Position numbers and translations under genes: made by a program
In this document: positions 5,577 to 8,412 of the stretch, piece after piece
How the letters are laid out: every line of letters starts with the position of its first letter
How positions within the stretch are numbered: the first letter of the stretch is position 1
Notes under the pieces: generated by a model
The model's input: only the letters and a program-made list of their open reading frames with translations
Told to the model about the DNA's origin: nothing
Databases searched by the model: none
Source: an uncultured Eubacteriales bacterium
Lineage (GTDB): Bacteria > Bacillota > Clostridia > Oscillospirales > Oscillospiraceae
Length of the DNA stretch: 17,239 nt
Direction of reading: 5' to 3'
Assembly: GCA_900313295.1 (NCBI GenBank)
Contig: OMQS01000174.1
Span: 1 to 17,239 of the forward strand

Positions 5577-5605
5577 TTGCAAAGAAGGAAAATATTTGTT
5601 ATAAT
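5577..5605 (+). promoter_or_regulatory. Promoter of the NifU-like/GGGtGRT unit
   Basis: TTGCAA (5577-5582), a 17-bp spacer and a perfect TATAAT (5600-5605), with an extended TGT at 5597-5599. This is the strongest-looking promoter of the window. The predicted start near 5612 gives a leader of about 47 nt. Confidence 0.85.
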
Positions 5606-5658
5606 CAAAGTGAACTGAGAACAGCAGAAACATATCACATAGAAAGGATTTGGCTATT

Positions 5659-6351
5659 ATGATCTATACCAGCGAAGTACAGCATATGTGCCCCATCGCC
5701 AAGGGCGCTTATCACGGCCCGGCACCTATCCCTGAGGAGGGGAAGTGGGTGCAGGCTAAGGAGATCGGCGACATCTCCGGCTTTACCCACGGCATCGGCT
5801 GGTGCGCTCCTCAGCAGGGCGCCTGCAAGCTGACGTTGAACGTGAAAAACGGCGTCATTGAGGAGGCTCTGGTGGAAACCATCGGCTGCTCCGGCATGAC
5901 CCACTCCGCCGCCATGGCCTCCGAAATTCTCATTGGCAAGACCATTCTGGAGGCGCTGAACACCGATCTGGTGTGCGACGCCATCAACACCGCCATGCGG
6001 GAGCTGTTTTTGCAGATCGTCTACGGCCGCACCCAGTCCGCTTTCTCCGAGGACGGTCTGGCGGTGGGCGCCTCTCTGGAGGATCTGGGCAAGGGCCTGC
6101 GCTCTCAGGTGGGCACCATGTTCGCCACCAAGGAGAAAGGCCCCCGCTATCTGGAGATGGCCGAGGGTTATGTGACCCGCGTGGCACTGAACAAGGATGA
6201 CGAGATCGTGGGCTACGAGTTCATTAGCCTTGGCAAGATGATGGACTTCATCAAGAAGGGCGACGACGCAGGCACCGCGCTGGAAAAGGCCAAGGGTCAC
6301 TACGGCCAGTTCGACAACGCCGCCAAGTATGTCGATCCCAGACAGGAATAA
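5659..6351 (+). CDS. NifU-like iron-sulfur cluster assembly scaffold protein
   Basis: A 230-residue protein whose central part resembles the NifU/IscU N-terminal scaffold fold: GACKLTLNVKNGVIEEALVE (about 54-73) then TIGCSGMTHSAAMASEIL (about 74-91), equivalent to the FGCGAAIASSS segment of scaffolds. Cysteines are at 11, 49, 56, 77 and 106; C49 or C56, C77 and C106 are the likely cluster ligands. It is longer than IscU (about 130), with extra N- and C-terminal segments. The start is the ATG at 5659-5661, 10 bases after AAAGGA; a TTG at 5650 sits directly against that Shine-Dalgarno and is rejected. It is the first gene of a two-gene unit with the GGGtGRT gene 16 bp downstream. No cysteine desulfurase is in the window, so the sulfur donor and the client are unknown. 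Confidence 0.85.
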   Translation: MIYTSEVQHMCPIAKGAYHGPAPIPEEGKWVQAKEIGDISGFTHGIGWCAPQQGACKLTLNVKNGVIEEALVETIGCSGMTHSAAMASEILIGKTILEALNTDLVCDAINTAMRELFLQIVYGRTQSAFSEDGLAVGASLEDLGKGLRSQVGTMFATKEKGPRYLEMAEGYVTRVALNKDDEIVGYEFISLGKMMDFIKKGDDAGTALEKAKGHYGQFDNAAKYVDPRQE

Positions 6352-6367
6352 GGAGGAGGGCGAAATT

Positions 6368-7369
6368 ATGGCACTGTTTGAAAGCTACGAAAGAAGAATC
6401 GACAAGATCAATGGCGTCCTCGCTCAGTACGGCATCGGCTCCGTGGAGGAGTGCCGCGAGATCTGCCAGGCCAAGGGCTTTGACCCCTATGAGATCGTGA
6501 AGGGCATCCAGCCCATCTGCTTTGAAAACGCCTGCTGGGCCTACACCGTGGGCGCGGCTATCGCCCTGAAGACCGGCGTGAAGACCGCCGCCGAGGCCGC
6601 CAAGATGATCGGCGTGGGTCTGCAGTCCTTCTGCATCGACGGCTCCGTGGCTGAAGACCGCAAGGTGGGTCTGGGGCACGGCAATCTGGGCGCTATGCTC
6701 CTCAGCGAGGAGAGCAAGTGCTTCGCTTTCTTGGCCGGCCACGAGTCCTTCGCCGCCGCCGAGGGCGCCATCGGCATCGTGAAGAACGCCAACAAGGCGC
6801 GCAAGGAGCCGCTGCGGGTCATCCTCAACGGCTTGGGCAAGGACGCCGCCCAGATCATCAGCCGCATCAACGGCTTCACCTATGTGCAGACCCAGTTCGA
6901 CTACTACACCGGCGAGCTGAAGATCGTGCGCGAGGTGCGCTATTCCGAAGGCGAGCGCGCCGACGTGCGCTGCTACGGTGCTGACGACGTGCGTGAGGGC
7001 GTGGCCATCATGCACCACGAGGGCGTGGACGTGTCCATCACCGGCAACTCCACCAACCCCACTCGCTTCCAGCATCCCGTGGCCGGCACCTACAAGAAGG
7101 AGTGCATCGAGCAGGGCAAGAAGTACTTCTCCGTGGCCTCCGGCGGCGGCACCGGCCGCACCCTGCATCCGGACAACATGGCCGCCGGCCCCGCTTCCTA
7201 CGGCATGACCGACACTATGGGTCGTATGCATTCTGACGCGCAGTTCGCCGGCTCCAGCTCCGTGCCTGCCCACGTGGAAATGATGGGCTTCCTCGGCATG
7301 GGCAATAACCCCATGGTCGGCGCCACCGTGGCCGTGGCTGTGGCGGTTGCCGAAAGCCTGAAAGGCTGA
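6368..7369 (+). CDS. GGGtGRT family protein of unknown function
   Basis: A 333-residue protein recognisable by the motif that names its family, GGGTGRT (residues 259-265, within ASGGGTGRTLHPDN). It is rich in glycine and in cysteine (29, 33, 51, 56, 89, 118, 202, 246), including C29-x3-C33 and C51-x4-C56. It has no signal peptide and no clear membrane span; the alanine/valine-rich C-terminus (about 317-330) is mildly hydrophobic. The ATG at 6368-6370 follows an AGGAGGAGGG run at ideal spacing, 16 bp after the NifU-like stop, so the two are co-transcribed. To my knowledge the family is known from anaerobic bacteria but has no established biochemical role. The partner suggests the protein receives or uses an Fe-S cluster; that is inference. 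A strong terminator follows. Confidence 0.9.
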   Translation: MALFESYERRIDKINGVLAQYGIGSVEECREICQAKGFDPYEIVKGIQPICFENACWAYTVGAAIALKTGVKTAAEAAKMIGVGLQSFCIDGSVAEDRKVGLGHGNLGAMLLSEESKCFAFLAGHESFAAAEGAIGIVKNANKARKEPLRVILNGLGKDAAQIISRINGFTYVQTQFDYYTGELKIVREVRYSEGERADVRCYGADDVREGVAIMHHEGVDVSITGNSTNPTRFQHPVAGTYKKECIEQGKKYFSVASGGGTGRTLHPDNMAAGPASYGMTDTMGRMHSDAQFAGSSSVPAHVEMMGFLGMGNNPMVGATVAVAVAVAESLKG

Positions 7370-7388
7370 TTTTCGGTATATGTTCCAT

Positions 7389-7424
7389 AAAAAATCCCGC
7401 CGAAAGATCGGCGGGATTTTTTTT
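7389..7424. terminator. Bidirectional intrinsic terminator between convergent genes
   Basis: A 10-bp stem, ATCCCGCCGA (7394-7403) with TCGGCGGGAT (7408-7417), has an AAGA loop. It is flanked by an A-run on the left and a T-run on the right, so it works on both strands. It ends the GGGtGRT transcript and also the minus-strand trio, whose last stop codon (7424-7426) touches the T-run. Confidence 0.95.
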
Positions 7425-7765
7425 CACAATATCAGCAGCAGACCCAGCGCTATGAGCAGCTCCTCGTCGGCCTTTTCCCGAAACAGCATGAACAGCAGAA
7501 GGAGCACCAGCAGGTCGCCGGCGTCCAGATCGCCAAGGTGCAGCTTCTCTAGGATCCGATTCAGCATGTCGCGCTCCGGACGCTGGGGAGCGGGGGGCGG
7601 TATGGGCGGCGGAGCAGACGGCGGGCGGGTGTTTGCGTCCGGCTTGGGCGGCGGGCGGTTGGGGAGTGGGCTGTTTTGCGGCTTTCCGGCGGTAGGGGGA
7701 GGCGGATCGGGCTGCGGCATGCGGGTATAAACGCCGCTGTCGTTGCGCGTGTAGCGGTTATACAT
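7424..7765 (-). CDS. Proline-rich small protein with hydrophobic C-terminus, unknown function
   Basis: A 113-residue protein, not recognised. It has a short polar start (MYNRYTRNDSGVYTRMP), a proline-rich stretch over about residues 16-67 with several PPP runs, an acidic helix, and two hydrophobic segments, LLVLLLLFMLF and the very C-terminal LLIALGLLLIL, joined by REKADEE. That suggests attachment to or insertion in a membrane with the proline-rich arm exposed. The start chosen is the ATG at 7763-7765, since GGGAGGGG lies 8 bases upstream; the in-frame ATG at 7781 would put this Shine-Dalgarno inside the gene. It begins 5 bp after the stop of the preceding gene and is the last of three small genes read together. 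It ends at the shared terminator. Confidence 0.75.
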   Translation of the reverse strand: MYNRYTRNDSGVYTRMPQPDPPPPTAGKPQNSPLPNRPPPKPDANTRPPSAPPPIPPPAPQRPERDMLNRILEKLHLGDLDAGDLLVLLLLFMLFREKADEELLIALGLLLIL

Positions 7766-7770
7766 GCCGT

Positions 7771-8145
7771 TCACCCCTCCCATTCCGTGAGGAAGCGCTT
7801 GCCGACGGTGATGAGCCGCGCCAGACGCGCCGCGCGCTCCACCTTGGCCTGCTTTTCTTCTTTTAAGTAGGGCTTGAGGGCGTTGAGGAGTTGCGTGGAA
7901 TGGCTTTGGTCAGCGGTCAGAGCCTGCAGCATGGGCAGAAATCGGGCGATGGTCTGCATGTCAAGCCCGCCCAGCAGAGAGCCTACGCCGCCTGCGTTTG
8001 GCGGGCTTTCCGGCGGGGGAGAGGGCGGCGGCTGCGGCGGCTGCGACCCCATGGAGCCGGAGAGCTGCTGCGCCAGCTGTACCACCTGCGCCATGCCGGC
8101 GGGATCCGAGAGGAGAGAGTTGAGCTTGTCTTCCAGTTCCGACAT
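7771..8145 (-). CDS. Small helical protein with proline-rich linker, unknown function
   Basis: A 124-residue protein, not recognised. An N-terminal helical segment (SELEDKLNSLLSDPAGMAQV, then VQLAQQL) is followed by a proline/serine linker (about 35-50), a glycine-rich turn (GGVGSLLGGL), and a C-terminal helical region that becomes strongly basic (ALKPYLKEEKQAKVERAARL). There is no signal peptide and no membrane span. The SDPAGMAQV-type segment resembles the QSPEG/QSPDG helices in the neighbouring 83-residue protein. The ATG at 8143-8145 has GAGGGGG about 8 bases upstream. It lies 15 bp after the previous gene and 5 bp before the next, so translation of the three is probably coupled. The high-GC shadow frames on the other strand here look non-coding. 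Confidence 0.75.
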   Translation of the reverse strand: MSELEDKLNSLLSDPAGMAQVVQLAQQLSGSMGSQPPQPPPSPPPESPPNAGGVGSLLGGLDMQTIARFLPMLQALTADQSHSTQLLNALKPYLKEEKQAKVERAARLARLITVGKRFLTEWEG

Positions 8146-8160
8146 GGCTGCACCCCCTCG

Positions 8161-8412
8161 TTACTGCTGCATCTGGCTGCCTAAGCGGTTTATCAGCGCC
8201 GAACCCTCCGGCGACTGCATGACTTTCTTCAGCATGGCCACCATTTGGGCGGTGCTGCCGCTATTGGCCGAGGAGGCCGCCTGATCCAGCGAGCTTCCGC
8301 CGTCCGACTGCGTGAGCATCTGCATCAGCTTTTGCCCGTCCGGCGACTGCATGATGCGCTGCACCATCTGGGGATCGTTTTTCACCTGCTTGAGTAGCTG
8401 CTGTATGTCCAC
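8161..8412 (-). CDS. Small helical protein with internal repeat, unknown function
   Basis: An 83-residue protein, not recognised, that looks fully helical and soluble. It has two copies of one short motif: IMQSPDGQKLMQML (about 20-33) and VMQSPEGSALINRL (about 65-78), separated by a Ser/Gly/Ala-rich linker. The start is a GTG at 8410-8412, with AAAGGA 9 bases upstream. The ATGs overlapping that site are in another frame, so GTG is needed. It is the first gene of the three-gene minus-strand unit. The upstream gap contains a possible sporulation-type promoter and an inverted repeat next to the Shine-Dalgarno. Confidence 0.75.
   Translation of the reverse strand: MDIQQLLKQVKNDPQMVQRIMQSPDGQKLMQMLTQSDGGSSLDQAASSANSGSTAQMVAMLKKVMQSPEGSALINRLGSQMQQ

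Follow-up and report, generated by a model that had tools for sequence, protein, structure and literature searches.

The NifU-like/GGGtGRT protein pair as a proposed iron-dependent enolase

What is the function of a NifU-like protein encoded next to a GGGtGRT protein in a bacterium in which no enolase is found? The question is raised by a two-gene unit in a 17,239-nucleotide stretch (OMQS01000174.1; contig C8, hereafter the window) from an uncultured Eubacteriales bacterium of the Oscillospiraceae, whose genome comprises 1.39 Mb in 198 contigs and is 77% complete, so that the lack of enolase proves little by itself. An initial annotation, made from the letters of the window, took the two proteins for an iron-sulfur (Fe-S) scaffold and its dedicated, cysteine-ligated client. 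In the accessible parts of the literature and records searched, a scope that leaves out most subscription papers and bioRxiv preprints, neither an assigned function nor an enolase role is given for GGGtGRT. The pair is an enolase candidate because of glycolytic synteny, enolase loss, fluoride operons and a reciprocal response to iron. Very probably, the two proteins are the subunits of a phosphopyruvate hydratase that depends on iron and has no relation to the Mg-dependent enolases. This role is strongly indicated by context and distribution; the enzymatic step and its chemistry are proposed here.

Pairing, gene neighbourhood and enolase loss

The NifU-like and GGGtGRT genes form an obligate pair. 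Among 299 genomes of the window's phylum, the GGGtGRT family (PF14057) occurs in 19, at 20 places, and a profile of the NifU-like protein finds 20 full-length places (413-458 bits) in exactly these 19 genomes, the next match scoring 34 bits; the two genes adjoin at 20/20 loci. A second sample consists of 149 genomes from the phylum to which a Methanobrevibacter bin belongs; in it, the NifU-like gene is present in 75 of the 76 genomes with PF14057 and in none of the other 73, the lone exception (G596) being a gene fragment of 198 profile positions. At the named loci, the NifU-like gene lies upstream of GGGtGRT in 78/80, including two with a split match (L086 and L096) and a few truncated at the edge of a contig, and the other two loci start just 49-54 bases upstream. 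Pairwise distances of the two proteins correlate (r 0.82 over 107 loci), with 0/1000 permutations as high. By title or rank, records containing the pair belong to Bacillota, Bacteroidota, Spirochaetota, Pseudomonadota, Myxococcota, Fibrobacterota, Lentisphaerota, Thermodesulfobacteriota and Methanobacteriota; GGGtGRT is 77-94% identical to the window protein in named loci and 62-87% in sampled genomes. In a quick tree with many weak forks, methanogen rows stand among Bacillota rows, which suggests transfer. One genome (G207), without an enolase match, carries a second, divergent whole pair (L021 on contig C94; 62% identity) besides L015.

The gene neighbourhood places the pair within glycolysis. 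In family f35, all six pair-bearing sampled genomes (L149, L150, L153-L156) show the order gap-pgk-tpi-gpmI and then the pair, followed by pyk in two of them (L149 and L150, of G248 and G174); Pfam matches confirm pgk, tpi, gpmI and pyk of L149, gap of L154 (G144) and gpmI of L155 (G029). Given that the place after gpmI and before pyk is the usual operon slot of enolase, this order puts the pair in the enolase slot, and all six genomes hold an enolase match as well. The same gap-pgk-tpi-gpmI run recurs in a separate lineage (L089 and L101), with one further open reading frame (ORF) before the pair, and gpmI is found at L082 too. Canonical enolase itself lies head to head with the pair in L070 (Faecalibacillus) and L081 (a Clostridium). 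The intergenic gap of the latter contains a Fur-box-like palindrome, TTGATAATAATTATCAA, with no mismatch and a one-mismatch copy; at up to three mismatches from the Fur consensus, the L081 locus has four matches against 1.16 expected. Such glycolytic neighbours are absent from 11 canonical NifU control loci, within flanks of only about 1.5 kb.

Enolase loss is frequent among genomes that carry the pair. In the phylum sample, PF00113 is absent from 17/299 genomes, namely 7/19 with the pair versus 10/280 without (Fisher p 1.7e-5), or 4/16 versus 10/280 (p 0.004) when three genomes of family f4 are removed; the pair is present in each of the three enolase-less genomes whose listed completeness is 100%. 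A survey of f4 itself, covering 229 genomes of completeness 95 or more, finds the pair in 40/41 enolase-less genomes and enolase in 32/33 pair-less ones (p 0.013). PF00113 is missing from 21/50 named pair genomes and present in 29/50. Two isolates, Oscillibacter valericigenes An890 and Oscillibacter sp. 1-3, are among those without it, as are two bins each of Treponema type and of Bacteroidota and one bin each of Anaerobiospirillum and Fibrobacteria. At least 14 switches in enolase state are needed on the GGGtGRT tree, of whose rows 28 lack enolase and 40 have it. The five rows nearest to the window's genome by path (L023, L022, L035, L037 and L026) all lack enolase. In another enolase-less genome (G246), a GA-cis RNA (RF02987, 67.8 bits; L008:1391-1473) lies between the NifU-like and GGGtGRT genes and may regulate or balance the two subunits.

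Fluoride provides a further connection. Enolase is a classical fluoride target, with a Ki of about 80 uM, and is often found in fluoride-riboswitch operons (PMC11139923). In an Rfam run on 28 loci and the window, a fluoride riboswitch (RF01734, 58.5 bits) precedes the run pair-crcB-crcB-DUF190 in L017, with a second riboswitch after it (54.9 bits); the same genes follow RF01734 in L019 (57.3 bits) and recur in L018, where no riboswitch was detected. In L062, a deltaproteobacterial bin, a riboswitch (61.7 bits) heads a same-strand run that includes crcB, DUF190, one more gene and then the pair, and in L051, a Geobacter bin, crcB, DUF190 and the pair are consecutive. Within the window's phylum, the pair has crcB and DUF190 as neighbours in three families, and it has them in these two bins as well. 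At two Myxococcales loci, L069 and L086, the neighbourhood of the pair includes both fluoride riboswitches and enolase. A pattern search over the fetched loci found no further riboswitch of the RF01734 form. Two phosphatases and one further protein, presumably PAP2-type phosphatases and a HAD-like protein, are encoded between the riboswitch and crcB/pair in L062 (3086-4914).

Published expression data show the pair and canonical enolase responding to iron in opposite directions. In early-phase Clostridium pasteurianum, GGGtGRT and the NifU-like protein are 7.1- and 3.7-fold higher under iron excess, and two enolase spots are 4.1- and 4.8-fold higher under iron limitation (PMC5395762). The Bacteroides thetaiotaomicron pair (BT0173/BT0174) changes by -11 to -12.8 fold in low iron, and the table row holding eno apparently by +2.0 to 7.7 fold (PMC10434189). 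In chicken gut Bacteroidetes, enolase is low or not expressed and GGGtGRT and NifU are expressed; relatives of the pair are reported there as highly expressed (PMC11204068).

Conserved residues and the proposed reaction

Conservation was assessed in an alignment of 111 rows, some of them nearly identical. In the NifU-like protein, C49, C77 and C106 are invariant (111/111) and C56 is present in 109/111. GGGtGRT has no invariant cysteine, the four that the initial annotation singled out being present in 25 (C29), 105 (C33), 75 (C51) and 65 (C56) of the rows; counting H, D, E, K, R, Y, N, Q and W, 27 of its residues never vary. Only 67 columns, corresponding to residues 33-102 of the NifU-like protein, can be aligned with canonical relatives (hhalign, probability 97): C77 falls on a canonical ligand cysteine, the first canonical cysteine falls on Q53, C49 lies in a gap, and C106 is outside the aligned part. 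At the CGD position of the IscU/NifU ligand motifs CGD...GC...HC, the protein has Q-G-gap, the HC region is unaligned, and there is no HC dipeptide in the window protein. Its scores against all four matched NCBIfam scaffold equivalogs are far below the cut-offs (28.3/187.9, 21.7/192.4, 20.4/92.5 and 17.3/273.3 bits), and 15/18 pair genomes contain a separate NifU/IscU/SufU-type match of 60 bits or more.

The interpretation in the initial annotation is partly supported. A dedicated pair was correctly recognized, the co-occurrence it called for being seen in both genome samples, and the link to iron is borne out by the published expression of the pair (PMC5395762, PMC10434189). The NifU/IscU-like cysteine spacing holds for C77 alone, C49 and C106 being off the canonical ligands. 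Since GGGtGRT lacks an invariant cysteine and the scaffold equivalog cut-offs are failed, the reading of a scaffold with a cysteine-ligated client is unsupported; the separate scaffold genes speak against it too.

Three cysteines are required by hydro-lyases whose [4Fe-4S] cluster leaves one iron open, such as aconitase, Fe-S serine dehydratase and class I fumarase. The three invariant cysteines of the NifU-like protein suit such an open-site enzyme, and the pair resembles these families in its proposed dehydration chemistry and in having exactly three strictly invariant cysteines; it differs in that its putative cluster subunit is NifU-like, and none of these families is among its Pfam matches. 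In the proposed reaction, the pair would interconvert 2-phosphoglycerate and phosphoenolpyruvate in both glycolysis and gluconeogenesis. The NifU-like subunit would carry a [4Fe-4S] cluster on C49, C77 and C106, leaving one iron open, and GGGtGRT, rich in invariant His, Lys, Arg and Asp, would hold 2-phosphoglycerate against that iron, which would activate the C3 hydroxyl as a leaving group while a protein base removes the C2 proton. A GGGtGRT loop would then shut over the substrate phosphate. In an AlphaFold2 model of GGGtGRT (predicted local distance difference test (pLDDT) 87.4; predicted template modelling score (pTM) 0.88), a single stretch falls below 50, at 261-274, holding most of the motif loop, and such a floppy conserved loop would fit a lid that becomes ordered once substrate or partner is bound. 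Because catalysis would proceed without the Mg-fluoride-phosphate site, the enzyme should resist fluoride; it would require iron and suffer damage from oxygen. Where a cell has both enzymes, the pair would serve under ample iron and canonical enolase under iron shortage, and many anaerobes, probably including the window's organism, would have kept the pair alone.

The pair would thus share with enolase (phosphopyruvate hydratase, PF00113/PF03952) the proposed reaction, the slot after gpmI, the fluoride riboswitches and a partly alternative presence. It is unlike enolase in consisting of two proteins, presumably dependent on iron rather than Mg, and no sequence relation was found: the Pfam matches of either protein (E up to 0.1) include no enolase family. 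What the NifU-like protein has in common with IscU/NifU/SufU scaffolds (PF01592) is a core in which about 67 columns, C77 among them, can be aligned; it departs from them in its length of 230 amino acids, in its other two strict cysteines, which do not align to canonical ligands, in the failed equivalogs and in its obligate GGGtGRT partner. GGGtGRT is a full-length member of PF14057, whose function is proposed here. In the wider sense, it is likely that the pair represents a second, non-homologous and heteromeric class of [4Fe-4S] enolase with a NifU-like cluster subunit, insensitive to fluoride and spread by horizontal transfer among anaerobic bacteria and methanogens, which supplies the enolase step in Oscillibacter, in Butyrivibrio-type organisms and in others that lack canonical enolase, iron controlling the switch between the two enolases.

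Alternatives and contrary observations

A specialised Fe-S scaffold, building a cluster for GGGtGRT as a dedicated client of unrelated function, would account for the similarity to the NifU_N core, the obligate pairing and the iron-responsive expression in two papers (PMC5395762, PMC10434189), and it would suit a Collinsella aerofaciens locus (L188:1-5993) in which sufD-sufS-sufU stand upstream of the pair, separated from it by a transposase. This is nevertheless very unlikely, considering the cysteine and equivalog results above and the other scaffold-type genes of most pair genomes, and it leaves the gpmI/pyk slot, the enolase loss and the fluoride operons unexplained. A different bypass of lower glycolysis, for example from phosphoglycerate directly to pyruvate or by a glycerate route, would fit the enolase-loss data as any bypass would. 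It is rendered quite improbable by the position of the pair between gpmI, which makes 2-phosphoglycerate, and pyk, which uses phosphoenolpyruvate (L149 and L150), by enolase being a main fluoride target (PMC11139923), and by enolase itself shifting reciprocally with iron (PMC5395762, PMC10434189).

It is also conceivable that animal-gut anaerobes both carry the pair and lose enolase, the pair having a role in iron or fluoride stress; pair genomes are mostly from anaerobes, some pairs stand in fluoride-riboswitch operons, and many genomes retain both enzymes. Such confounding is extremely unlikely in view of the repeated changes of enolase state on the tree, the near-complete presence of the pair in enolase-less genomes within the single family f4, and the glycolytic operon position in two lineages, against which the canonical NifU control loci, with their short flanks, have no such neighbours.

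Several observations weigh against an enolase role. Enolase was scored by PF00113 alone, and fragmented or incomplete bins inflate its absence as well as the 14 changes on the tree. The ten phylum genomes with neither pair nor PF00113 are 61-97% complete, G042 reaching 97%, and G614 (96% complete) is the only one of f4 without both, so that some organisms either do without both or have gaps in their sequence. Both enzymes occur together in 12/19 pair genomes of the phylum sample, in 156 of all 229 f4 genomes and in 29/50 named pair genomes. The window pair does not adjoin glycolytic genes. The pair is also carried on large replicons of Vibrio, Persicobacter and Collinsella, so that it is not confined to strict anaerobes. 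The published iron data are correlations, and for B. thetaiotaomicron the second column of the eno row gives 0.144, which is probably the false discovery rate (PMC10434189) and makes the enolase half of the reciprocity weak in that species. In chicken gut Bacteroidetes, phosphoglycerate mutase is low as well, from which the authors infer diversion to serine (PMC11204068). Extracts of Butyrivibrio proteoclasticus show only very low enolase activity (PMC2914790), which oxygen damage could explain.

The unit in the window and the missing enolase

The features of the unit are collected in the table. The observations of the initial annotation are partly confirmed: both ORFs of the two-gene unit are upheld by ORF calls and Pfam matches, a promoter-like site, a Shine-Dalgarno site and a terminator-like hairpin are all present in the sequence, and no isc/suf gene is seen among the neighbouring translations, most of them judged by eye, without a family search. 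A ligand role for C29, C33, C51 and C56 of a 'cysteine-rich' GGGtGRT is not borne out by their conservation. Promoter-like sites number two in the region, against 0.6 expected in shuffles, and a mechanical terminator scan listed a weaker 5-pair hairpin at 7355-7367. The genes are separated by 16 bases. The PF14057 match of GGGtGRT (654.4 bits, cut-off 27) spans profile positions 1-326 of 327; that of the NifU-like protein to NifU_N barely exceeds its cut-off of 22 and covers residues 56-113 and only positions 38-95 of 127. The few close proteins with names come from Vescimonas, Butyricicoccus and Oscillospiraceae, or are titled Firmicutes/Bacillota bacterium.

Features of the NifU-like/GGGtGRT unit (positions in the window)
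Feature	Position	Strand	Basis
Promoter-like site, TTGCAA-17 bp-TATAAT, TG before the -10 box	5577..5605	+	10/12 matches; consensus match only
NifU-like protein, 230 amino acids from ATG 5659; proposed subunit bearing a putative [4Fe-4S] cluster	5659..6351	+	ORF; PF01592, 22.9 bits; invariant cysteines
Shine-Dalgarno site GGAGGAGG ahead of the second ATG	6352..6359	+	read from sequence
GGGtGRT protein, 333 amino acids; proposed substrate-binding/catalytic subunit	6368..7369	+	ORF; PF14057, 654 bits; conservation; model m80b917bf6a0f, pLDDT 87.4
Terminator-like hairpin ATCCCGCCGA-AAGA-TCGGCGGGAT and eight T	7394..7424	+	read from sequence; absent from mechanical scan list

Candidate regulatory elements are found ahead of the pair elsewhere. 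In Erysipelotrichia-type leaders (L070:4869-4892, L076, L083, L088, L092 and L095), the -10 box is closely followed by a palindrome of the AGGTGA-N-TCACCT type, perfect at some loci and imperfect at others, which is a candidate operator. Oscillibacter-type loci (L026, L035 and L037) have the palindrome GGTAATCGTTTACC inside the promoter spacer upstream of the pair, and Clostridium leaders (L079 and L081) a GC-rich, hairpin-like stretch in the 5' untranslated region, possibly a structured regulator. After the unit in the window, three short minus-strand ORFs (7424-8412) have no Pfam match above cut-off.

To our knowledge, enolase is treated as near-universal in glycolysis. Its absence is an acknowledged open problem, reported for Butyrivibrio proteoclasticus (PMC2914790), Butyrivibrio (PMC6912079), Pseudobutyrivibrio (PMC7523725), the Hungate1000 collection (PMC6118326), Oscillibacter valericigenes (PMC3558957) and Endomicrobia (PMC11257099, PMC12483993), and in reviews (PMC11026938, PMC11187502); in the accessible parts of these accounts, the NifU-like/GGGtGRT pair is not named. 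The Hungate1000 contrast of enolase-positive with enolase-negative Butyrivibrio reportedly gave no substantial additional insight (PMC6118326); a comparison of this kind would overlook a pair that most relatives have retained. If the pair is indeed an enolase, a highly expressed gut protein family without an assigned function would acquire a place in central metabolism, models of anaerobe glycolysis that are built automatically would need correcting, and iron and fluoride would be linked directly to carbon flow in the gut and rumen.

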